DNA of 64,000 nucleotides from Halorientalis salina (lineage in GTDB: Archaea > Halobacteriota > Halobacteria > Halobacteriales > Haloarculaceae), in assembly GCF_005049285.1 (NCBI RefSeq), contig NZ_SOSC01000001.1:620001-684000 (forward strand), in the 5' to 3' direction. The notes below the pieces were generated by a model that had not been told where the DNA came from, searched no databases, and worked only from the letters and a program-made list of their open reading frames with translations. Of this stretch, positions 11,179-39,179 are shown piece by piece. Every line of letters begins with the position of its first letter. Positions within the stretch are counted from its first letter, which is position 1. A program made the position numbers and the translations under genes.

Positions 11179-11608
11179 ACTGGCCGTCTCTCACGGGACC
11201 ACAATAAGTGTCCGGCGGCGTCCACGCCGTCGGAACCGTGTCAATCTCGACCGCTGACCAGTCACGAACGGTTCCTGACGAGTTGTCGTGAGGTTTGTCC
11301 CACCGTACGGGTGTCGCGCCGAGTTCGCGGCCGTCACCGCGTCTTGAGGCCAGCGAGTGCCCGAAACCAACTCAGAGACGACCGGGTAAGTTCGGCCTAG
11401 CCGGGACGGTTCACCGAATCGACACACTGTTCGTGGGCGGGCGCGGGTGGTTCGGCAACGAACGGTCGCTCGGGTTTATTCCCCGATTTGTGGAAGCCCA
11501 ACCGCCACCGCGGCACGGTCGCCGCGAGTGGCGGGGAACCAGTATGTACATACACGTCACGACAACACAGACGGAGACAGAGGGATCTTCAGGTCACCGG
11601 GGGACGCC
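11179..11608. other. 430-bp divergent intergenic region with promoter and palindrome
   Basis: It separates the CoA-transferase from the large secreted repeat protein. I see a TATA-like TTTATT near 11474-11480 and the perfect palindrome at 11542-11553, but no gene. If that TATA is used, the repeat-protein mRNA would have an untranslated leader of about 100 nt, unusual among the leaderless genes here. Confidence 0.45.
11542..11553. promoter_or_regulatory. Perfect 12-bp palindrome upstream of the repeat protein
   Basis: GTATGTACATAC reads identically on both strands and lies between the putative TATA element and ATG 11609. Candidate operator; equally it could be chance. Confidence 0.3.
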
Positions 11609-14600
11609 ATGAGATCGCGGCTCGTGTTCGCCCTCGCGACCGTCGTCGTCCTGAGTGCCGTTTCGGCACCGGCCGCCTCGGTACAGGACGGATCCGACGG
11701 GACAGTCTCGGCCCAGGACCAGTCGGCAATTACGGAGTACAGCGAGACTGCAGCGGAGTTAGCGGCGTTGGCGCGCGCCTCCCCCGATCAGGAACCCGAG
11801 CTTTCGGCCCAACAACAGGAGGCGGCGATTCGGGGCGCTCGTGAGGGTGCGCTACTCGCACAGGAGCAGGGCGTCGACATCACGCAGGAACAACGACAGG
11901 CAGCGATCGACGGCGCGATCGAGGCCGCAGCCCAGAACCAGGAGGCATCGGTCGAACAGATCCAGGCGGCGACCAAAGGCGCGGCACACGGGGCGCTGAT
12001 ACAGAACCAGACGGCCAACGTCACCCAGCAACAGGCCGGCGTCTACGGTGGGGCGGCCGGTGCGCTCACACAGTCACAGGACGCGACCGTCACGCAACTC
12101 CAGAGCGCGGGCTACGGTGCGGCACACGGGTCCGTCGCCCAGTCCCAGCGCGCGAACGTCACGCAGATCCAGTACGCGGCGATCGGCGGCGCCGCCGGCG
12201 CTGCCAGTGAGATCGCCCAGTCCCAGCGTGCGACCGTCTCGCAGGTACAGGAGGCGGCCCAGGGCGGGACGTACGGGTCGCTGACACAGGTCCAGTCGGC
12301 GAGCGTCGAGCAGATCCAGGCCGCCGCCTACGGCGCGGCGGGTGGCGGTGTCTCCGACCACGACGCGACCGATCCGAAGAAAGTTCAGGAGGCAGCAGTG
12401 GGTGCCGCTTCGGGGTCGCTCATGCAACAACAGGACGCGACGGTCGAGCAGGTTCAGGCGGCCGCACGCGGGTCCTGTGAGGGATCGCTCCAGCAGAGCC
12501 AGGCGGTCTCGATCGTACAACTCCAGCAGATCTCCGTCGGCTCGGCCCACGGTGCGATCTCCCAGTACCAGGACGCGTCGGTCGAGCAGATCCAGGCCGC
12601 CGCGACCGGCGCGGCCAGGGGCGGCGTGACACAGGTCCAGACTGTCGAGATCACCCAGATCCAGACCATCGTCTTCGAGGCGGCCGCCGAGTCGGCGGAC
12701 GAGGCCGCACAGTCGGGGACGACCGACCCGACCGTGATCATCCAGCAGACCGAGACGAACGTGGAACAACGAGTCACCGTCGAAATCGGCGACGACGATG
12801 ACCAAGACGACGAGGAACCGTCGGAGCCAGAGAGCCTGAACGTCTCGGTCGAGAACCAGACGGTGACGTTCGAGAACCCCAACGACGAGGTAGTCGTCGC
12901 CACGGTCGACGGGGACCGCTTCGGCGAGCGTAACTTCACCGTCGACGCCGACGGGACGCTCAGCGAGGAGTTCGCCCACGGGTTCTACACCGTCACCGCC
13001 CAGACCGAGGACGGCCAGCGGGTTTCGGTCAACGGGGAGTCCGAATACGATCTGACCGTCGAGCCGTCGGTCGAGAGCGTGAACGTCTCCACCAGCGACG
13101 GCGTCGTCACCCTCGAGAACCCGAACTCGCTGTCGGTGGTGGTGACCGCGCAGAACGAAACCGGTGAGAACAGGACCGTCATAGTCGGGTCGAACGACTC
13201 CCGGACGACCACGTTTGCGCCGGGTGAGTACACCGTCACGGCCGCGACCGAGGAGCGACGCTTCGCAGTCCCCGTGAACGGACAGGACGAAGCGACGATC
13301 ACGGTCGAGCCACTGCCCTCGGCCAACGCGACGGTCGAGGATGAGGCCCTCACCGTCGAGAACCCCACGGCGGTTCGGCTGACGCTCCTGTTGACACGCG
13401 AGGACGGCGAGACCGACCAGTTCCTGGTGCTGGCCGGCGAAAACGAGACGCGCGATCTCGATCCCGGGAACTACACCCTGACAGCCGAGACCAGGGACGA
13501 CGTGACCGTTCGGATCAACGACGAGGACGAGTTTACCTTCAGTGTCGAGGAACCCGAACCGGAGGTAGAGAGTCTTTCGACCGACACAGACGGCACCGAA
13601 CTGTCCATCGAGAACCCTAACGACGTGCGGGTCATCGTCACCGCGACGAACGAAACGGGTGAGAACCGAACCATCGAGGTCCCGGCCGAGGGGAACACCA
13701 CTGAAGAATTCGAGCCTGGGGAGTACTCGCTCACTGCCGAGACCGAGGACGGCCGGCCCGTGCCGGTCGACGGGGCGAACGAGACGACCGTCACCATCGA
13801 GGAACCCGAGGTAGAGATCGAGAGCCTCAGCGCCAGTTCCGACGGAGACGAGTTGACCGTCGAGAATCCCAACGACGAATCGGTCGTCGTAACCATCACG
13901 AACGAAGCGGGCGAAAACGAGACCCTCACGGTCTCGGGAGCCGAGACGACCACGTTGGAACTCCAGCCAGGTGAATACACCGCGTCCGCCGAGACTGAGG
14001 ACGGCCAGACAGTGCAGATAAACGACGAAGACGAAGTGAGCTTCACCATTGACGCGCCCGAGACGGCCTTCGAGAGTCTCTCGGCCAGTGTCGAAGACGA
14101 CGAACTGACAGTCGAGAACCCCAACGACGAGACGGTCGTCGTGACCGCGGCGAACGACACCGAGGGCGATCAGACGATCGAGATTCCGGGTGACGACACC
14201 GTCACGGACGAACTCCCGGCCGCGGTGTACACCGTGACCGCCGAAACCGAAGACGGTGACCAGGTCGACATCAACGACCAGGAATCGATCGACATCGAAA
14301 TCGAAGAACCAGCAGAGGAGACTGAACCCGTGACTGACACACCCACAGAGACACCGGAACCTGAGGATACGCCCACAGAGACACCAGAACCGGAAGATAC
14401 GCCCACCGAAACGCCGGAGCCTGAGGATACGCCCACAGAGACACCGGAACCAGAGGACACACCCACCGAAACGCCAGAACCCGAGGACACGCCCACAGAA
14501 ACGCCAGAACCCGAGGACACGCCCACAGAAACGCCAGAACCCGAGGATACGCCCACAGAGACACCGGAGCCAGAGGACACACCCACCGAAACGCCGGAAC

Positions 14601-14650
14601 CGGAACCGGAAGACACGCCAACAGAGACTCCTGAGCCCGAAGAAGAGTAA
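11609..14650 (+). CDS. Large secreted repeat protein: Q/A/G 23-residue repeats, six beta-type repeats, TPTETPEPED stalk
   Basis: 1013 residues from ATG 11609. Four parts are visible. Residues 1-24 look like a Sec signal peptide. Residues about 62-365 are some eleven units of about 23 residues with the pattern GAAxGSLxQxQxAxVxQxQxAA. Residues about 408-905 are six units of about 82 residues, each with ENPNDE..VVVT, GENRTI, PGEYTVTAETEDG and a closing acidic strand. Residues about 908-1013 are ten TPTETPEPED units and a PEPEEE end. NxT/S sequons are many, suggesting N-glycosylation. No C-terminal membrane helix or PGF-CTERM is seen, so anchoring is unexplained. The Q-rich repeats recall curlin or beta-solenoid units (inference); the PT/E stalk resembles cell-surface spacers. 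Probable matrix, adhesin or surface-fibre protein. Confidence 0.8.
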   Translation: MRSRLVFALATVVVLSAVSAPAASVQDGSDGTVSAQDQSAITEYSETAAELAALARASPDQEPELSAQQQEAAIRGAREGALLAQEQGVDITQEQRQAAIDGAIEAAAQNQEASVEQIQAATKGAAHGALIQNQTANVTQQQAGVYGGAAGALTQSQDATVTQLQSAGYGAAHGSVAQSQRANVTQIQYAAIGGAAGAASEIAQSQRATVSQVQEAAQGGTYGSLTQVQSASVEQIQAAAYGAAGGGVSDHDATDPKKVQEAAVGAASGSLMQQQDATVEQVQAAARGSCEGSLQQSQAVSIVQLQQISVGSAHGAISQYQDASVEQIQAAATGAARGGVTQVQTVEITQIQTIVFEAAAESADEAAQSGTTDPTVIIQQTETNVEQRVTVEIGDDDDQDDEEPSEPESLNVSVENQTVTFENPNDEVVVATVDGDRFGERNFTVDADGTLSEEFAHGFYTVTAQTEDGQRVSVNGESEYDLTVEPSVESVNVSTSDGVVTLENPNSLSVVVTAQNETGENRTVIVGSNDSRTTTFAPGEYTVTAATEERRFAVPVNGQDEATITVEPLPSANATVEDEALTVENPTAVRLTLLLTREDGETDQFLVLAGENETRDLDPGNYTLTAETRDDVTVRINDEDEFTFSVEEPEPEVESLSTDTDGTELSIENPNDVRVIVTATNETGENRTIEVPAEGNTTEEFEPGEYSLTAETEDGRPVPVDGANETTVTIEEPEVEIESLSASSDGDELTVENPNDESVVVTITNEAGENETLTVSGAETTTLELQPGEYTASAETEDGQTVQINDEDEVSFTIDAPETAFESLSASVEDDELTVENPNDETVVVTAANDTEGDQTIEIPGDDTVTDELPAAVYTVTAETEDGDQVDINDQESIDIEIEEPAEETEPVTDTPTETPEPEDTPTETPEPEDTPTETPEPEDTPTETPEPEDTPTETPEPEDTPTETPEPEDTPTETPEPEDTPTETPEPEDTPTETPEPEPEDTPTETPEPEEE
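12182..12700 (+). repeat. Core of the 23-residue Q/A/G repeat array
   Basis: Within the secreted protein, codons here encode successive 23-residue units, about 69 bp each, with one 26-residue unit and one degenerate unit (SDHDATDPKKVQ). Degenerate units extend upstream to about 11790. DNA identity between units is low, so the repeat is held at protein level. Confidence 0.7.
14338..14640 (+). repeat. 30-bp tandem repeat coding for the TPTETPEPED stalk
   Basis: Ten units of 30 bp (the ninth is 36 bp) encode the C-terminal TPTETPEPED series. Units differ mainly at third codon positions, so the array is old enough to have drifted or is selected at protein level. Confidence 0.9.
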
Positions 14651-16947: not shown

Positions 16948-18111
16948 GTGAAGCTCGGACTCATCGGGATCGGCGGGGCCGGCGGACGGGTCGTCGAGTC
17001 CCTCCTGCAGTACGAGGACGGGTCGCGAGGGGAGTTCATCGCGGACGCGGTCGCGATACACACCGCGACGGCCGACCTGAAGCGCCTCGAACGGGTACCG
17101 GTCGACAATCGCGTCCCGATCGGCCAGACGCAGGTAAAGGGGCGGGGAACCGGCGCGGACAGCGAACTCGGGGCCGAGATCGCAACGGCGGATATCGCGG
17201 AGATCAGGGGCACGATCGACGATGTTCCAGTCGGCGACCTCGACGCCTTTCTCGTCGTCGCCGGCCTCGGCGGTGGCACCGGGGGCGGCGGGGCACCGGT
17301 CGTCGCCCGCGAACTCGGCGAGAGCTACGCGGAACCGGTCTACGGCCTGGGCGTCCTGCCAGGCGCGGACGAGGGACGCGTCTACGCGCTCAACGCCGCC
17401 CGATCCGTCCGGACGCTCGTTCGGGAGACGGACGCGCTCGTCCTCGTCGACAACGACGGATGGCAACCCAGGGACGAGAGCGCTGGTGCCGGCTACCGAC
17501 GCGTCAACGCCGACGTGGCACGCCGGCTCGGCGTGCTGTTCAGTGCGGGCGAAACCGACGGTCACGGGACGGTTCCCGAGAGCGTCGTCGACGCGAGCGA
17601 GATCAGCAACACGTTCGGGACGGACGGGGTGGTGACCGTCGGGTACGCGGCCTCGCGTATCGAGAGCCCCGAGAGCGGATTCCTCTCCCGGATTTCGGGA
17701 TCGGAACCCGAGGAGATCGACACGGGGAATCAGATCACGAGCACGGTCCGGATGGCGACGCTGGGACGGCTGTCCCTGGCGTGTGACATCACCAGCGCCG
17801 AGCGCGCACTGGTCGTCGTGGCCGGCCCGCCGGAGCATCTCGACCGCAACGGGATCGAGCGCAGTCGGACCTGGCTGGAGGAGGCCACCGGCACCATGGA
17901 AGTCCGCGGCGGCGATTATCCGGTTCCGGATTCGAGTTACGTGGCCGCCGTGGTCGTCCTCGCCGGCGTCTCGGACGTGCCACGCCTCGCGGAACTGCAG
18001 CGGACTGCGGTGAAAACGCAACGTTCGATGGAAGAAGCGGCGGATGAAAGCGAGCGCAACCCGACCGACTGCACCCCGAGCGGTGACAACGACATCGAGC
18101 CACTGTTTTGA
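16948..18111 (+). CDS. cetZ: Tubulin-like cytoskeletal GTPase CetZ (paralogue)
   Basis: 387 residues with a GTG start at 16948. The tubulin/FtsZ GTP signature appears as LGGGTGGGGAPV, N-terminal GIGGAGGRVVESL binds the nucleotide, and the T7 region is VVDASEISNTF as in CetZ proteins. CetZ is the archaeal FtsZ/tubulin family that in Haloferax controls cell shape and motility. The C-terminus ends in a short hydrophobic tail (DIEPLF) after a disordered linker, as in FtsZ-like proteins that bind partners through the tail. Haloarchaea have several CetZ paralogues, so the specific role is open. Confidence 0.9.
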   Translation: MKLGLIGIGGAGGRVVESLLQYEDGSRGEFIADAVAIHTATADLKRLERVPVDNRVPIGQTQVKGRGTGADSELGAEIATADIAEIRGTIDDVPVGDLDAFLVVAGLGGGTGGGGAPVVARELGESYAEPVYGLGVLPGADEGRVYALNAARSVRTLVRETDALVLVDNDGWQPRDESAGAGYRRVNADVARRLGVLFSAGETDGHGTVPESVVDASEISNTFGTDGVVTVGYAASRIESPESGFLSRISGSEPEEIDTGNQITSTVRMATLGRLSLACDITSAERALVVVAGPPEHLDRNGIERSRTWLEEATGTMEVRGGDYPVPDSSYVAAVVVLAGVSDVPRLAELQRTAVKTQRSMEEAADESERNPTDCTPSGDNDIEPLF

Positions 18112-18587
18112 GTTAGCTCGGTATACATCCGCCCCTACTTAAGTACCCGATAATATCACGAAGAAGACTCATCGAAACAACGGTCGGAATAGAGAGTGCA
18201 GTTCGCTCCCAATCCAACGCCCGATATTTCCCTCCCCGAATCCATCGGGCGTTTCCCACACGCGACTCCGCGCCGGGGTCTCCGGCTCGGAATTACCTTC
18301 TGACGTCCGTGAGTCGGCGAGCCGTGACGGTGTCGCCTCGTGAATCCTAAAAACCTCCTCACATCCCAGGCAGAATTCTCACACGACAGGCAGGAGTACA
18401 CCGGACCGGCCAGTGAGTGCCAGGACACCCCACTCCAGACGCTCACTGGTGTGACTCCCAACTGCAAGACGCCACTCGGCAGCACCCGGCCGTGTTCGGC
18501 CGGGGTTTGCCACCTGCATCCTCCCCGATACCGACCTCGCATTGTGAGTACCGAAACCGGTAGAAGCGTGAGGGCTAATGGCGACGT
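18112..18587. other. 476-bp intergenic region holding a structured element
   Basis: Between CetZ and the small protein gene at 18588. No gene is supported in its left half (18112-18340). The right half holds the two perfect hairpins described separately. Short open frames on either strand follow the structure and look spurious. Confidence 0.6.
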
Positions 18588-18590
18588 ATG
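18350..18590 (-). ncRNA. Candidate structured non-coding RNA (unidentified)
   Basis: Two perfect 8-bp stems lie here: CCAGTGAG/CTCACTGG (18409-18416 with 18441-18448, 24-nt loop) and CCCGGCCG/CGGCCGGG (about 18486-18505, loop AACA on the complement), the latter extended by GGCA/TGCC. On the complement the stretch ends in a GTTTTTAGG run near 18350, which could terminate an RNA of about 240 nt. I find no RNase P or SRP RNA signature. Strand and transcription are inference; it could also be a repeat element. Confidence 0.4.
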
Positions 18591-18857
18591 GGGGAACACG
18601 TCGACTCACTGACCCAACAGGACGGCTGGCACGCCGAGGACCGCGCCGCACGCGTCCACTACCAGGGCGGCAGTGACCGCTACAGCATCGAGTACTACGA
18701 ACCGAGCGACTGCGTCGTCTACTGGAAGGTCGCTCCCGACGGCGACATCGCGGTCCCGGTGAGCCGTGACACGGTTCCAGACCCGCTCCGCGAACGGATC
18801 CGACAGGACCTCACGACCGCCGACATCGACCCGGCCGTCGAATCCCGGACGCTGTGA
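18588..18857 (+). CDS. Small conserved-looking haloarchaeal protein, function unknown
   Basis: 89 residues from ATG 18588. Acidic, no signal or membrane segment. Features seen: a central SDRYSIEYYEPSDCVVYWKV beta-rich stretch and a C-terminal helix VPDPLRERIRQDL. Codon use matches neighbours, so it is probably a real gene. I do not recognise a function. Confidence 0.7.
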   Translation: MGEHVDSLTQQDGWHAEDRAARVHYQGGSDRYSIEYYEPSDCVVYWKVAPDGDIAVPVSRDTVPDPLRERIRQDLTTADIDPAVESRTL

Positions 18858-18945
18858 GACGGTGTCCGACCGGCACAGACACCTGGGGAATGCTCACGAT
18901 GGAGACGACAGTGCGTTTTAGGGAGTCGATGCCCTGCACAGAGAT

Positions 18946-19710
18946 ATGAGTGTCTCGGACGCGGACATCGAGGCTGTCGCAGCGGCCGTCCGGGCTGCCG
19001 AAACGGTGGTCGCGATGACGGGCGCGGGCGTGAGTACGGCGTCGGGGATCCCGGACTTCCGCGGCGAGGGCGGCCTCTGGGAGCGCCACGACCCGATGGA
19101 CTTCCACATCGACCGGTTCCGGTCGGACCCGGCCGGGTTCTGGACCGACCGGGTCGACCTCCAGGCAGCCATCTTCGGGGACGAATCGATCGCCCCCAAC
19201 GGCGCACACGAGGCACTGGCCGATCTGGAGTCCGCCGGCCATCTCGACACCCTCGTCACCCAGAACATCGACGGCCTCCACCAGGAGGCAGGCTCGGAGG
19301 ACGTCGTCGAAATCCACGGCTCGGCCGCCCGCGTCAGTTGCCGTGACTGCGGGGAGCGCTTCGACGCCGACCCCGTTATCGAACGGGCACGGGACGGCGA
19401 ACTCCCGCCGACCTGCGCGGACTGTGGCGGGACGCTCAAACCCGACACGGTGCTGTTCGGGGAGCAACTCCCCGAGCACGCGCTCGCACGCTCACAGGCA
19501 GCCACACGGAACGCCGACCTGTTCCTGGTCGCTGGGTCGTCGCTCACCGTCGAGCCAGCAGCCACGCTCCCGCAGACCGCCGCAATGCGTGGGGCGACGC
19601 TGGTTCTGGCCAATCTCGAATCGACGCCGCTGTCGGACCGCGCAGAGTTCGACCTCCGGGCCGACGTGACCGAGGTCCTCCCACGGATCCGTGACGAACT
19701 GGGACTCTGA
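18946..19710 (+). CDS. sir2: Sir2-family NAD-dependent protein deacylase
   Basis: 254 residues. NAD-binding GAGVSTASGIPDFRG, TQNIDGLHQ with the catalytic His in EIHGSA, and four zinc ligands as CRDC and CADC pairs. It should remove acyl groups from lysine using NAD. Start ATG 18946. Monocistronic. Lysine-acylation targets are unknown; in Haloferax Sir2 is dispensable. Confidence 0.94.
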   Translation: MSVSDADIEAVAAAVRAAETVVAMTGAGVSTASGIPDFRGEGGLWERHDPMDFHIDRFRSDPAGFWTDRVDLQAAIFGDESIAPNGAHEALADLESAGHLDTLVTQNIDGLHQEAGSEDVVEIHGSAARVSCRDCGERFDADPVIERARDGELPPTCADCGGTLKPDTVLFGEQLPEHALARSQAATRNADLFLVAGSSLTVEPAATLPQTAAMRGATLVLANLESTPLSDRAEFDLRADVTEVLPRIRDELGL

Positions 19711-32618: not shown

Positions 32619-32690
32619 TGGACTCGCCGGGATTTGAACCCGGGGCCTTCCCCGTGCCAGGGGGATGATCTACCGCTGATCTACGAGCCC
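32619..32690 (-). tRNA. tRNA-Ala (anticodon GGC)
   Basis: On the complement, acceptor GGGCTCG pairs with CGAGTCC, the D-stem is GATC/GATC, the anticodon stem TCCCC/GGGGA has loop CTGGCAC giving anticodon GGC, and the T-arm is CCGGG/CCCGG with TTCAAAT. Discriminator A is at 32619; CCA is not encoded. Reads Ala GCC codons. A TATA-like GTTTAAG lies about 30 bp upstream, near 32720. Confidence 0.95.
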
Positions 32691-32872: not shown

Positions 32873-33649
32873 GTGACAAACACGTATGCTGAGGACGGGG
32901 TCGGCGGTTCGTCGAACAGGTTGCCAGTCGCAGGACGATCAGAGACAGTGACAGGGGAGACGCCTTCACCGCCGATCGACGGGGACTCGGCCGAGAAGCC
33001 GCGCGAAGAACGAGGGTCGAGCGGCGGGTCCGGGCTCGATTCGAACGGTCGGTCCGTGGTGGCATCCGACGAGGGCCGACGGCGTGGGCAGACGACGCTG
33101 GATTTCGCGACCGGGATGAGCGTCTTTCTCATCATCCTCATCGCCGTGCTGTTGTTCATTCCCGGGTCGCTGGAACCGTTCACCAAGGGGGCACAGGACA
33201 ACATCGTCACCTCGAACCGGGTCGGTGACCAGCTCTCGGAGGGCTTGCTGGGCGACCCGTCGAGTCCACACGTCGTGAACGCGAGCTGTACCATCGCGTT
33301 CTTTGAGGACAGGACGCCAGGGCACGGCGAGTGCCGGTTCACGGGCTCGACGTTACAGGAGCGAATCGGCGTGCAGGACCGGCGACTGGTCAACGTCTCC
33401 GTACAGGGGAACCTCTCGGCGAACGGCGGGCAGGAGGGCATCCTCTGTTGGGACGAAAACGGGAACGACCCGGGCCTGCTCGTCGAACAGAGCAACGCAT
33501 CACAGAGCTGTGATACACAGTTGGCGATTGGGTCGACGCCGCCCCAGCAGGCGGACGCGACCGTCACCGCGCGGCGCGTCATCTCGATCAACGAGAGCGC
33601 GAACTCGACCGAGAAGGTCGACGTGGCGCTCATCGTGGAGGTGTGGTGA
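32873..33649 (+). CDS. Pilin-like membrane protein 1 (DUF7287-type)
   Basis: 258 residues from GTG 32873. After a disordered N-terminus of about 70 residues it has RRRGQTTLDFATGMSVFLII and one hydrophobic helix, then an extracellular-type domain with sequons and Cys pairs. The RGQ-TLDF block before a single helix is like a class III or prepilin-type signal processed by a PibD-like peptidase. The long N-terminus is unusual, and a later internal start is possible. First of five overlapping genes. It fits DUF7287 as I remember it; function unknown. Confidence 0.75.
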   Translation: MTNTYAEDGVGGSSNRLPVAGRSETVTGETPSPPIDGDSAEKPREERGSSGGSGLDSNGRSVVASDEGRRRGQTTLDFATGMSVFLIILIAVLLFIPGSLEPFTKGAQDNIVTSNRVGDQLSEGLLGDPSSPHVVNASCTIAFFEDRTPGHGECRFTGSTLQERIGVQDRRLVNVSVQGNLSANGGQEGILCWDENGNDPGLLVEQSNASQSCDTQLAIGSTPPQQADATVTARRVISINESANSTEKVDVALIVEVW

Positions 33650-33651
33650 CG

Positions 33652-34233
33652 ATGCGAGGACAGGTGCACACGCTGGAGGCGATCGTCGGCGCGCTCCTGT
33701 TGTTGACGAGCGTGGTGTTCGCCTTACAGATGACGGCAGTGACGCCGCTATCGGCGAGTACCTCCAGTCAGCACATCGAGAACCAGCAGCAGGCGAGCGC
33801 GGAGGGGGTCCTGGCCAGCGCGGTCGAGAGCGGCGCACTGCGTCGGGCCGTGCTGTTCTGGAACGAAACTGACGGGAGTTTCAACGGGACGACGTCCGAG
33901 GAGTTCTACACGGTCAACGCACCGCCCAACGAGTTCGGGGAGAAGCTCGAACGCCAGTTCGGCGAGCGCGGGATCGCGTACAACGTCAGGATCTACTACC
34001 GGACGGCGAGTGGGAACGTTGCCGAACAGCTGATGGTCCACCAGGGCGAGCCCAGCGACAACGCCGTGATGTCGGCGCGGACCGTCGTAATAACCGACGA
34101 TGCCCGGTTGTACAACGAGACCGGAGCTCGGTCCGGTACCTCGGTGCGCGACTCGTACATGTCTAACGACGTCACCACTGACAGTCCGGTGTACAACGTC
34201 GTCCGCGTGGAGGTGATTGTATGGCGCATCTAA
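33652..34233 (+). CDS. Pilin-like membrane protein 2 (DUF7288-type)
   Basis: 193 residues from ATG 33652 (a GTG at 33643 would add three). It begins MRGQVHTLEAIVGALLLLTS, so the RGQ motif again precedes one N-terminal helix, and the rest is a soluble outside-facing domain with NET and NGT sequons. It starts 2 bp after the previous stop and overlaps the next gene by 13 bp, so it is a translationally linked operon member. Confidence 0.8.
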   Translation: MRGQVHTLEAIVGALLLLTSVVFALQMTAVTPLSASTSSQHIENQQQASAEGVLASAVESGALRRAVLFWNETDGSFNGTTSEEFYTVNAPPNEFGEKLERQFGERGIAYNVRIYYRTASGNVAEQLMVHQGEPSDNAVMSARTVVITDDARLYNETGARSGTSVRDSYMSNDVTTDSPVYNVVRVEVIVWRI

Positions 34234-35249
34234 GTAACGAGAATCGCCGAAGTCGGGGCCAGCTCATCCTGGTGACCGCCTTCGCACTGGCAGTATCGTT
34301 CGTGGCGCTCGCGCTCGTGTTGAACTCAGTCATCTACACGGAGAACCTCGCGACGCGAAGCGAGTCCGCGAAGGCCTCCGACGCCGTGAAGGTCAAATCC
34401 GACATGGTCGACGGGACGGCCCAGATCATGACCTACGTCAACGAGTACAACGCGAGTGAAGCGGACACCTACTCGGATCTGGTTGACGAGATACGCGTCG
34501 GCGTCAGCAACACGACACAGTTCGCCCGCGAGTACCAGAACGTCAACGGACAGGCGATAAACACCACGCTCGTGGCCACCGAGAAGGGGACCTGGATCAA
34601 CCAGACGTTCTCGGTCGAGAACAAGAACTTCACCGACGCGAACGGCGACCCCAGCTGGACGCTTGTCAACGACACCGAGGGTACCCGGCGGTTCCGCATG
34701 AACGTGACTGACCCCGATGCACTCGCGGACACCGGGGACCTCGCGGCAGGAGAGACGAGAAGCGACCTGGACAACTTTACCGTCGTCGCCCGAGACCGGT
34801 CGGTATCGCCGGCGAAGACCTGGAAGATGGAATTGTTCCACGACGACGCCGACCTGATCGGCTCCGGTTCCGAGTACGTCCTCTCTGTCGTCGTTGACGG
34901 GGACCAGCGGCCGACGTGTACGGTCCCGAACGGCGTCGAGCACTTCTGGGTCAACGTCTCGGCGGGTACCGTCAGCGGCGAGGACTGCCGGGCACTGCGG
35001 TTCGCGGAGAACACCGGAGGCGTCTACGACATCAGTTACTGGAACGGTGACAAGATAAACGGGACCTATCGGCTCATGGTGAACAACCAGAGCGCGCTCG
35101 ACCCCACACACTACAACAGTACGGTCACCGCCGGGCCGCCGGTGCTCGACAAGGCGATCTGGGGTGGGAAGATCCTCGTCGACTACGAGGAACAGCGCAT
35201 GGTGTACGAGACGGACGCACGGGTCGTCCCGGGTGAGAGCGATGACTGA
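34221..35249 (+). CDS. Pilin-like membrane protein 3 (DUF7261-type)
   Basis: 342 residues. RRSRGQLILVTAFALAVSFV gives RGQ then a helix; the remainder is a large sequon-rich domain (NTT, NQT, NVT, NVS, NST). Overlaps its neighbours by 13 and 8 bp. It matches DUF7261 as I remember it. Probably an anchored or assembled surface subunit. Confidence 0.8.
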   Translation: MAHLSNENRRSRGQLILVTAFALAVSFVALALVLNSVIYTENLATRSESAKASDAVKVKSDMVDGTAQIMTYVNEYNASEADTYSDLVDEIRVGVSNTTQFAREYQNVNGQAINTTLVATEKGTWINQTFSVENKNFTDANGDPSWTLVNDTEGTRRFRMNVTDPDALADTGDLAAGETRSDLDNFTVVARDRSVSPAKTWKMELFHDDADLIGSGSEYVLSVVVDGDQRPTCTVPNGVEHFWVNVSAGTVSGEDCRALRFAENTGGVYDISYWNGDKINGTYRLMVNNQSALDPTHYNSTVTAGPPVLDKAIWGGKILVDYEEQRMVYETDARVVPGESDD

Positions 35250-35706
35250 CCGGCCCACCAACCGCGGACAGGCCATCACGCTCAACTACGCGTTGGGACT
35301 CGGCATCAGCGTCATCCTCATGACGGGGTTGTTGATAACCGGCGGGGCGTTCGTCAACGACCAGCGCGAGAGCGCCATCCGGACGGAACTGCGCGTCATC
35401 GGCCAACAGGTGGCCGCCGACGTCGCGACGGCGGACCGACTCGCCCAGTCGACGGAGGACAATTCGTCGGTCACGCTCGAACGGGACATGCCGGACACTG
35501 TCGCCGGTGGCACCTACGACATCGAGGTCGTGGCGACAGCGGACGCACACTTGATCCTCACCACGAGGAACCCCGATGTGCGCGTCAGGGTCGACCTCGT
35601 CAACGAGACGGTCATACAGGAGACCTCGATAAACGGCGGGCGGCTCCGCATCAACCAGACGGAGAGTGGTGAGCTGGAACTCGTCAGCGGCGGTGGTAGC
35701 GGATGA
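35242..35706 (+). CDS. Pilin-like membrane protein 4 (DUF7266-type)
   Basis: 154 residues from ATG 35242. TNRGQAITLNYALGLGISVI repeats the RGQ-plus-helix start; a short outside domain follows, ending SGGGSG. It overlaps the neighbouring genes by 8 and 4 bp. Function unknown, minor-pilin-like by layout. Confidence 0.8.
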   Translation: MTDRPTNRGQAITLNYALGLGISVILMTGLLITGGAFVNDQRESAIRTELRVIGQQVAADVATADRLAQSTEDNSSVTLERDMPDTVAGGTYDIEVVATADAHLILTTRNPDVRVRVDLVNETVIQETSINGGRLRINQTESGELELVSGGGSG

Positions 35707-36479
35707 TCCGCCGTGACGAGCGAGCGGTGACCGACGTCATCGGCTTCATCCTCGTCTTCGGACTGGTCGCGACCACGGTGGCCATCGTTTCCGTCAGCGG
35801 ACTGAGTACACTGCAGGACGCCCGTAACGCGGAACAGATCAACAACGCCGAGCGGGCGTTCGACGTGCTGGCCGACAACATGGCCGACATCTATCAGGAG
35901 GGAGCGCCCCACCGGGCGACGGAGGTCAGCCTCGATGACGCCACGATGAACACGGCGACGAGCGTCCGGATCAACGTCAGCGGGGAGGAGAAAAGCAGCG
36001 GTGACCTGGAGACGATCACGAACGTCCAGTCGCGACCCGTCCTCTGGAGGTCCACACAGAGCGCAGAGACCGAGATCGCCTACTCGTTGGGGGCAGTGGT
36101 CCGGGCCGACCGGGAGAGCGGTGTGATGGTCAACGAACCGCCGTTCGTCCTCCAGGATGACAGGATGTTGCTGACGATCGTCAAGACCCGGACCGATAAC
36201 CCGAAGAGTCTGAGCGGCACGACGGTCCGGGTCCGGGGCAACCAGGAACGGTCGTCTAGTAGCGTCCTCACCGGCGTCGACGACAGCTACGACGAAGTCA
36301 AGATCAACATCACGTCGTCACGGGCCGGCGTCTGGGAGCAGTACTTCGAACGGAAAGCGATCACCAACTCCTGCTCGATAGACGAGGAGACGGGTCGAGA
36401 GCGCGTGAGCTGTACCCTGGATGCGCCCAAAGAGATGTACGTCACGGTCAACGGCGTCAACGTCGAACTGGAGCGCTGA
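35703..36479 (+). CDS. Pilin-like membrane protein 5 (DUF7289-type)
   Basis: 258 residues. The N-terminus MIRRDERAVTDVIGFILVFG carries RAVTDVIGF, close to the archaeal type IV pilin start, then one helix and an extracellular domain with two Cys near the C-terminus. Starts as ATGA in the stop of the previous gene. Last of the five-gene unit. Confidence 0.82.
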   Translation: MIRRDERAVTDVIGFILVFGLVATTVAIVSVSGLSTLQDARNAEQINNAERAFDVLADNMADIYQEGAPHRATEVSLDDATMNTATSVRINVSGEEKSSGDLETITNVQSRPVLWRSTQSAETEIAYSLGAVVRADRESGVMVNEPPFVLQDDRMLLTIVKTRTDNPKSLSGTTVRVRGNQERSSSSVLTGVDDSYDEVKINITSSRAGVWEQYFERKAITNSCSIDEETGRERVSCTLDAPKEMYVTVNGVNVELER

Positions 36480-36759
36480 CAGCTCCCAGGACTACAGTCT
36501 TACCGCGCTACTGGCTACAGACCCCGACCGTGAACTGGTGAGCGTTCGTGCTGCATACGCTGTAGCGTCGTCACCATCTGTGAGGAGGTCAACGACCGTT
36601 CGGACGACGGGACAGGCGATGCCTGCTGCCCGACGACCGTTCGGACGATTGGACTGGCGATGCCTGCTGCCCGAAGTCAGTTGCGTGGGCAGCGACGCGC
36701 TGTTTCTCGGCCAGATCCCACGACCGGGCGCGACCGGTCACTCTAGAAAGCGGTGGCGC
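36480..36759. other. Convergent intergenic region with a 41-bp tandem duplication
   Basis: No gene seen. It separates the five-gene unit from the minus-strand pilin-like gene, and its only structure is the tandem repeat at 36593-36674. Confidence 0.6.
36593..36674 (+). repeat. 41-bp tandem repeat, two copies
   Basis: Copies 36593-36633 and 36634-36674 abut and differ at three positions by hand alignment. Both contain GGCGATGCCTGCTGCCC. A recent slippage-type or duplication product in intergenic DNA. Confidence 0.8.
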
Positions 36760-38367
36760 TCACTCGAAATCGACCTGGACGTCGTTTTCGGTCACGTGGA
36801 GGAACGCGATGAACTCCGTGCCTTTCGTCTCCTCGTAATCGAGCGATGCACTGGAGGTCGGTTCCTGGATGCGGTCACTCGTGCCCGGGCCGCCCTTGAC
36901 GATGAGATCGACGTCAGGCCCCATCAACTGGAAGTAGTGGTTGATGACCTCGTCCATCTGCTCTTCGTCGCCCTGGGTGTAGCTCGAGGGCTCGTCGGTG
37001 ACAGTCGGGGAGTGCTGATCCCACTTGGCCGTGCTGTTCAGCGACCAGCTCCCCTCCTCCCGGATGTGGTCGTTGAACGCCCACCTGTTCCCGAGCGTCG
37101 AATCGTCTGCGGTACCGCTGCTGGGTTCCAGCTTACTAGTGAAGCCGGGGTCGACGTGGCCGTCCTTGCCGAGTTTGTCGTAGGTCATCTGCCTGGAGTT
37201 CAGGAAGTCGATGTTGAGCTTGGCGTCGCTGCTACAGTCCCAGTCCATCCAGGACGCCTGGTCCGGGTCGATGGCCGTGCGGTTCTCGAACGCTTCGTAG
37301 TTCGTCGTCCCATCACCATCGTGGTAGTAGACACCGACGTAGACCTTGCCGTCCGGATCCGGACACGGATTGTTCTTGACGTCCGAGTAGACGTAGATCT
37401 CGAACTCCTTGCCGTCCTCGGTCGCGTAGAACGAGAAGCGAGGATCGCTTTTGTCGACGTCAAGGGACACGTCGAACTCCTTCAACGGATGCCCCTCGCC
37501 GACGCCACCGGCTTCGATGTCGCCGCCAGGATCCGGCAGCGGTGCGACGGTCCCGGGTGCACCGCCGAAGGAGACCAGTTCCAGCCGGACCGTCTGGTTG
37601 TGGTCGTATTCTGTCACGTTCCCGGTGGTGCGCTGGCGGAAGTACTCCGCCCACCCCTCGTAGTAGTCGCTGTGGACCCAGGCGTAGACGGTCCCGTTCT
37701 CGATGGGGTTCTCGTACTGTGCGGGATCGTCCTCGTAGTCGTACGGTGCCCCAGTCCCGTTGCTCGTGCTGGTCGTCTGGTTCGGATACACTGGCGCTTC
37801 AGGACCCTTCTGGCTCACAGTCACCTTGGCCGTACTGGACCCTTTGGTGTCACTCCGGACCCGGATGATCGGGAGCGTCAGGGTCGCCCGGCGGTAGTGG
37901 AACTCGGGCGGTGAGACCATCAGCGCGTCGCCCTGCCCGTCCTTCCGCCAGACCCCACCGCCTTGGTACGCGATCTCTGTCTTCCCGTTCGTATAGAGCA
38001 TCCGACCCAGCGACTCGTTGTAGATTACCTCCACGTTCTCGCCGCCCGAATAGTTGTGGTGCTCGATGGCGATCCACCCGGATTCCGGGTCGGTCGTGAA
38101 CGACCCGCTGTCCTGCCCGAATGAGATGGTCTGGGTGTTCGACGCGCCCAGTGCGACCATCGCGGTCCGCGAATCGAACAGCGTCATCGAGTGTTCGGCC
38201 CGCTGGAGTTCCGCCTGCTCACGCGTCGAATCCAGCGCCGACGTGCCGAGCGCGACGATAGTGATCGTGCCGGCAAGCACGACTGCGATGACGAGCAGGT
38301 ACCCAATCGGGCTCGATTGGCCACGCGAGTCTCCCGACAGCCACCGGCGGACCCCGCCTACAGTCAT
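36760..38367 (-). CDS. Large pilin-like membrane protein with RGQ start
   Basis: 535 residues. GDSRGQSSPIGYLLVIAVVL shows RGQ followed by SPIGY and a helix, which fits an archaeal type IV pilin or archaellin start. The rest is a big sequon-rich outside domain with many acidic residues and Cys pairs. It is convergent with the five-gene unit, so it is separately expressed. Likely in the same functional group (DUF7289-like); the role is not known. Confidence 0.8.
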   Translation of the reverse strand: MTVGGVRRWLSGDSRGQSSPIGYLLVIAVVLAGTITIVALGTSALDSTREQAELQRAEHSMTLFDSRTAMVALGASNTQTISFGQDSGSFTTDPESGWIAIEHHNYSGGENVEVIYNESLGRMLYTNGKTEIAYQGGGVWRKDGQGDALMVSPPEFHYRRATLTLPIIRVRSDTKGSSTAKVTVSQKGPEAPVYPNQTTSTSNGTGAPYDYEDDPAQYENPIENGTVYAWVHSDYYEGWAEYFRQRTTGNVTEYDHNQTVRLELVSFGGAPGTVAPLPDPGGDIEAGGVGEGHPLKEFDVSLDVDKSDPRFSFYATEDGKEFEIYVYSDVKNNPCPDPDGKVYVGVYYHDGDGTTNYEAFENRTAIDPDQASWMDWDCSSDAKLNIDFLNSRQMTYDKLGKDGHVDPGFTSKLEPSSGTADDSTLGNRWAFNDHIREEGSWSLNSTAKWDQHSPTVTDEPSSYTQGDEEQMDEVINHYFQLMGPDVDLIVKGGPGTSDRIQEPTSSASLDYEETKGTEFIAFLHVTENDVQVDFE

Positions 38368-38717: not shown

Positions 38718-39179
38718 ATGGCACGAATGCACACACGCCGCCGCGGGTCGTCCGATTCGGACAAACCCGTGGCAGACGAGCCGCCGGAGTGGAGCGACGT
38801 CGACGATGCCGCCATCGAGGAGCGCGTCGTCGAACTAGCAGAACAGGGACACGACCCGAGCGTCATCGGACTCAAACTCCGTGACGAGGGGGTTCAGGGA
38901 ACGCCCGTGCCGGACGTCAAGCTGGCGACCGGCAAGAAGATCACCGAGATCTTGGAGGAGAACGACGCCGACTCGGAGTTCCCCGAGGACCTGCACAACC
39001 TGATGGAGCGGGCCGTCCGCCTGCGCGAGCACATGGACGAGAACCCGACCGACCACCAGAACAAGCGCGCACTCCAGAACACCCAGTCGAAGATCCGTCG
39101 CCTGGTCGATTACTACCGCGGTGACGAGATCGACGCCGACTTCACGTACTCCTACGACACCGCCAAGGAACTCCTGTAG
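38718..39179 (+). CDS. rps15: 30S ribosomal protein uS15 (S15P/S13e)
   Basis: 153 residues. MARMHTRRRGSSDSDKPV is the archaeal start, and HNLMERAVRLREHMDENPTD and the DYYRGDEI block near the C-terminus are typical of the family. It binds 16S rRNA in the small subunit. Its stop is directly followed by the ATG of the RecJ-like gene, the first of a four-gene operon. Confidence 0.97.
   Translation: MARMHTRRRGSSDSDKPVADEPPEWSDVDDAAIEERVVELAEQGHDPSVIGLKLRDEGVQGTPVPDVKLATGKKITEILEENDADSEFPEDLHNLMERAVRLREHMDENPTDHQNKRALQNTQSKIRRLVDYYRGDEIDADFTYSYDTAKELL

Follow-up and report, generated by a model that had tools for sequence, protein, structure and literature searches.

A probable second pilin set of a PilB4-class type IV pilus, detached from its motor genes, in Halorientalis salina

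Six genes between tRNA-Ala and uS15

The stretch of DNA that we analysed (the window) comprises 64,000 nucleotides of a contig of Halorientalis salina, whose family is the one that contains Haloarcula and Halorientalis. Six genes in this window, all with intact reading frames, are bordered on the left by a tRNA-Ala(GGC) gene (32619..32690, minus strand) and on the right by the gene for ribosomal protein uS15 (38718..39179, plus strand), which is no part of a pilus; both borders are kept across the family. Genes 1 to 5 run head to tail on the plus strand. Gene 1 (A; 33059..33649, 196 aa) carries the signal RGQTTLDF and matches Pfam DUF7287 (6.7e-36); gene 2 (B; 33652..34233, 193 aa, ATG start) carries RGQVHTLE and matches DUF7288 (4.1e-65); gene 3 (C; 34221..35249, 342 aa) carries RGQLILVT and matches DUF7261 (1.7e-10); gene 4 (D; 35242..35706, 154 aa) carries RGQAITLN and matches DUF7266 (1.1e-25); and gene 5 (E; 35703..36479, 258 aa) has a PilA-like signal, RAVTDVIGF, and matches DUF7289 (6.6e-64). 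The sixth or facing gene (F; 36760..38367, 535 aa) occupies the minus strand and combines DUF7289 (4.6e-21, residues 15-185) with DUF7308 (5.7e-43, residues 286-512). Gene 5 and the facing gene, both of which carry DUF7289, are told apart by strand and position.

The original prediction had described a tightly overlapping five-gene unit opposed by a large gene, and this layout is confirmed, the five genes being co-directional and overlapping by 4-13 nt from gene 2 on: gene 1 ends at 33649 and gene 2 begins with its ATG at 33652, while the overlaps are 13 nt between genes 2 and 3, 8 nt between genes 3 and 4, and an ATGA (4 nt) between genes 4 and 5. The GTG at 32873 from which gene 1 had been read is probably too early a start. 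Several orthologues of gene 1 begin 12-20 residues ahead of the prepilin motif, a spacing that the GTG at 33059 fits. A scan with a bacterial sigma-70 promoter model, which is unsuited to archaea, gave no match.

All six proteins belong to Pfam families of unknown function; a literature search with the names DUF7287, DUF7288, DUF7261, DUF7266, DUF7289 and DUF7308 gave no paper, and an NCBIfam search of the proteins gave no usable match. The closest named relative of gene 2 is found in Halorientalis marina (62% identity). The earlier statement that no function had been assigned is thus accurate for the individual families, which are unnamed, but not for the ensemble: a pilin set of this kind, together with its ATPase, is on record as a type IV pilus system of euryarchaea (PMC4858521).

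Prepilin signals and sequons

In each of the six proteins a prepilin-like site precedes the only strong hydrophobic stretch. As originally noted, this site is RGQ, ahead of a single N-terminal helix, in genes 1 to 4 and the facing gene, with RAVTDVIGF in its place in gene 5. As a mark shared by the whole group, RGQ stands for genes 1 to 3 and fails for gene 4. Among roughly 70 orthologues of each gene, R(G/A)Q is present in 63 for gene 1, 66 for gene 2 and 58 for gene 3, and gene 2 keeps R, Q and an E further downstream without exception in all 36 aligned sequences; because the motif is conserved among orthologues, a chance origin is excluded. Gene 4 has RGQ in a single one of about 70 orthologues, most of which have R(A/G)V instead, and its RGQ is a peculiarity of this genome; R(A/G)V is the normal site of genes 4 and 5 in relatives. 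Gene 4 also documents a switch between two kinds of prepilin site inside one family. Class III prepilin signals, one of the marks of a PilB4-type pilin set, are conserved across the orthologues.

The outer domains had all been called rich in sequons, which applies to half of them. Gene 1 has 6 sequons against 1.7 expected (P 0.003), gene 3, the most sequon-rich of the set, has 12 against 3.7 (a number reached in 0 of 2000 shuffles), and the facing gene has 9 against 3.5 (P 0.0025); gene 4 is borderline, and genes 2 and 5 show no enrichment.

Pilin layout and the two halves of the facing protein

The AlphaFold model of the gene 2 product (pLDDT 90) has a 60-residue N-terminal helix followed by a C-terminal beta sheet, and this predicted layout is that of pilins in general. 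A Foldseek search with the model listed no pilin among solved structures, VIA-align 2 likewise returned no pilin and an uninformative mixture of unrelated beta sheets, and a sequence search for solved relatives of gene 2 found none. Gene 5 shares the RAVTDVIGF signal with the archaeal PilA-type pilins (Pilin_N, PF07790), to which it has a weak similarity (0.034; 15.4 bits) that falls below the family cut-off of 25.2.

The facing protein (model pLDDT 78) has all of its invariant alignment columns within residues 15-264 and none beyond; its pilin half is conserved, and the outer half varies. All 32 F-type proteins that we compared carry DUF7289, with DUF7308 in 16 and DUF7305 in 16; three also match an ice-binding-like adhesive domain. 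A pilin moiety joined to an extra C-terminal domain is the architecture of a modular type IV pilin. The top fold matches of the DUF7308 half are galectins and similar ConA-like beta sandwiches, which would suit a lectin-like binding module but, with Z values of at most 7.4, lie within background; this module is not a recognised lectin by sequence, and Foldseek gave no match to the facing protein at E ≤ 0.001. We read the product of the facing gene as a minor pilin of this type, with a swappable binding half, and as a probable tip adhesin. A relationship of the facing protein to beta-propeller or WD-repeat proteins was considered and set aside, the sequence matches to such solved structures being weak and taken as chance.

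Motor genes are encoded elsewhere in the genome

The original prediction that no PilB, PilC or PibD gene lies nearby was confirmed. The genome's PilB matches all fall outside the window, none of the window's open reading frames matches PilB4 or PilC4, and tblastn with both proteins against the window found nothing, so that no remnants of them stand beside the set; a Peptidase_A24 (PibD-type) gene is present on another contig (C18). With no ATPase or platform gene beside this copy, the window locus is not a complete PilB4-type system; the lack of an adjacent motor bears on the locus and not on membership of the pilin families.

A PilB4-class ATPase and a PilC platform are nevertheless present in this genome (G000:C22:125182-129780; T2SSE and T2SSF by Pfam), on a contig (C22) that places the pair at least ~200 kb from the window set; the name PilB4 rests here on locus organisation and not on arCOG numbers. 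Directly behind this pair lies a second, diverged pilin set, which is 22-35% identical to the window set in B to F and alignable in A over 37 residues only. The genome contains six further PilB-family (T2SSE-family) matches.

The set is linked to PilB4-PilC4 in other families and detached in this one

Of the 146 genomes of the order, 117 have DUF7288; 140 have an ATPase that is PilB4-class or related, a count that also takes in remoter members of the PilB family. In families other than that of the window, a PilB4-class gene lies within 15 kb of 92 of 101 DUF7288 genes; for the remaining nine, the contig that carries DUF7288 contains none. The order that recurs in the sampled haloarchaeal families is PilB4-PilC4-A-B-C-D-E, mostly followed by a facing F gene, so the pilin genes of the window recur there in unchanged order behind the ATPase and platform genes. 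The association does not hold strictly for the ATPase, since 15 genomes outside the family have a PilB4-class member and no DUF7288 match. Five loci of other families (L056, L095, L103, L104 and L106) have the PilB4 module near the same tRNA-Ala/uS15 site, and on this ground it seems that the window copy has kept the ancestral location and that the motor half has moved away.

Within the family we sampled 96 genomes and counted as detached any set that lies within 8 kb of uS15 and does not adjoin PilC4. Such a set is carried by 36 genomes, 34 of which have PilC4 elsewhere: 4.7-11.4 kb upstream of the set (14 genomes), 55 kb to 2.2 Mb away (10 genomes) or on another contig (10 genomes, this one included). 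The two genomes in which PilC4 is missing are drafts, 60% and 91% complete. This natural series, from an adjacent to a wholly separated motor, backs the motor assignment. The loci that we examined in the family follow the order PilB4-PilC4 (sometimes with a set 1), tRNA-Ala, set 2, uS15; moving upstream past the tRNA in L067, G220, G167, G174, G153, G196, G185 and G217, the first recognised module is PilB4-PilC4, beside which no separate pilin set stands. A single PilB4-PilC4 pair stands alone in G146 (99% complete), where set 2 is the only set and lies on a different contig. All seven genomes of one genus (g58: G147, G162, G172, G181, G192, G203, G212) have neither DUF7288 nor PilC4, which would fit a joint loss of motor and pilins; since one event could account for all seven, the evidence is weak.

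Some variants of the site deserve mention. Haloarcula loci L057, L061, L062, L063, L065, L072, L090 and L091 have two tandem facing genes, both encoding modular pilins. In G059 (L079:14885-15802) all that is left of the tRNA-Ala/uS15-site set is gene 1 with a truncated facing gene; the set seems to be in the process of being lost.

The family's motor-linked sets bear recognisable outer modules: the F position has VWA or CARDB, and D may carry PKD with LamG or with a ricin-type lectin. The C22 set of the present genome (L038:13974-16607 and 17603-19495) has PKD and Laminin_G_3 in its gene-4 paralogue and VWA in its facing-gene paralogue; at L089:6796-8469, a gene-4 paralogue has PKD and a ricin-type beta-trefoil lectin fused to the DUF7266 pilin.

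Phylogeny and selection

In a tree of A+B+D+E, 22 uS15-site sets form one clade (support 98/94) that is nested among the motor-linked sets of other families. The motor-linked sets of the window's own family fall in several places on long branches; the trees are midpoint-rooted, and these long branches make the placement of the motor-linked sets unsure. In the PilC4 tree, by comparison, the family minus one genus forms a single clade (support 100/91). From this pairing of one PilC4 clade with scattered motor-linked sets, the motor appears to have descended as one lineage; its neighbouring pilin set would have diverged or been exchanged, and the detached set would have been retained. Purifying selection acts on the detached set, with dN/dS values of 0.01-0.24 for the six genes in comparisons among Haloarcula copies; the gene 3 values for L045 versus L066 or L047 were left out as extraction errors.

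Discussion

We consider it probable that the six genes encode a second copy of the pilins of an archaeal type IV pilus of the PilB4 class, and that PilB4-PilC4 assembles them in trans. PibD, encoded on contig C18, would cleave all six proteins after R-G or R-A. The motor pair of contig C22, a PilB4-class ATPase with its PilC4 platform, would then build the products of genes 1 to 5 into a filament or the tip complex of one, while also serving its own adjacent, diverged set. The pilin half of the facing product would anchor it in the filament; its DUF7308 half would be displayed, probably at the tip, and may bind surface or cell-envelope glycans. Comparative genomics thus supports the earlier suggestion of a pilin-type surface complex served by a distant export machine, and points to the C22 pair as that machine; the suggestion of a pseudopilus gained no support of its own. 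Linkage in relatives falls short of proving use in this species.

PilB4 may not be the sole or main motor of the set, in view of the six further PilB-family matches in the genome and of reports that one PilB-C pair is able to serve the pilins of another (PMC6491452). Pressed further, this argument would have the set mainly assembled by another PilB-PilC pair, such as a general PilB3-type one, the partner having been switched when the motor was lost; in Haloferax volcanii, pairs are known to serve one another's pilins (PMC6491452), and archaea exchange pilin sets and motors (PMC4858521). Such a switch seems unlikely to us: PilB4-PilC4 is the neighbouring motor in relatives that have exactly the same set, and PilC4 is retained in nearly all genomes in which the set is detached (34/36).

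We give distinctly less credence to an unpolymerised, ATPase-independent, membrane-anchored surface complex in which class III signals serve for insertion only. The absence of a motor gene nearby would suit such a complex, as would the large, unlike ectodomains and the lack of any obvious major pilin in the sequences; however, the same gene order recurs behind PilB4-PilC4 in nearly all other families, where a motor would be pointless, and the N-terminal helix predicted for gene 2 has the 60-residue length seen in pilins. That the set is a decaying remnant of a duplication we regard as very improbable. The reduced G059 locus is what speaks for decay; against it stand the six undamaged frames in this genome, the dozens of genomes with a complete set, the dN/dS values well under 1 in Haloarcula, and the fact that the window set is closer to the sets of other families than is the motor-linked set of the same genome.

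The PilB4-class pilus to which we assign the set is itself of a known kind (Makarova 2016). Clade 2 of Makarova, Koonin and Albers (2016; Fig. 4B) includes the H. volcanii PilB4 system at the HVO_1160 locus, which has its own pilin set and a duplicated minor pilin of 250-550 aa, arCOG02911 (PMC4858521). The likeness lies in an ATPase and a TadC/PilC protein that go with several dedicated pilins, and the arCOG02911 minor pilin fits gene 5 and the facing gene; the window set differs in being a second copy without ATPase and platform. (HVO_1153 was considered as a further member of that locus, and we found nothing that ties it to the pilus.) What is new is the detached, lineage-conserved second set, together with modular pilins in archaea. 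For haloarchaeal ATPase-TadC modules, cooperation with pilins whose genes lie elsewhere has been described (PMC4858521), and the PilA1-6 adhesion pilins of H. volcanii are likewise encoded away from PilB3-PilC3, the pair that assembles them; those pilins serve as alternative major subunits, whereas the detached genes described here make up an entire ordered set that includes a modular minor pilin. Archaeal genomes can hold dozens of orphan pilins, whose motors are usually hard to assign; for one detached set, our comparison proposes the cognate motor. More tentatively, a single motor might alternate between, or co-assemble, two conserved sets with different tip adhesins, a fixed one at tRNA-Ala/uS15 and a fast-changing one beside the motor; we rate this as possible rather than likely. 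If it were true, a cell could change its binding specificity by swapping its pilin set.

The facing protein also resembles the Streptococcus sanguinis modular pilins PilB and PilC, which are equipped with VWA and ConA-like lectin modules, bind ligands and have been placed at the pilus tip in models (PMC8179133, PMC9934059). Common to both are a class III signal, a pilin moiety and a grafted binding module, and VWA and ConA-like lectin modules are also found on the family's facing-gene and gene-4 paralogues; the likeness is one of design only, the pilin families here being archaeal. It seems that archaeal pilins, like bacterial ones, can be fitted with interchangeable modules (VWA, LamG, ricin-type lectin, DUF7308, DUF7305). 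With modular pilins and a named motor, six Pfam families of unknown function gain a testable role. Elsewhere in the window, at 11447-14650, a 1067-aa frame that starts with GTG contains repeated units, a C-terminal TETPEPEDTP repeat and 19 sequons, and probably encodes a surface protein.
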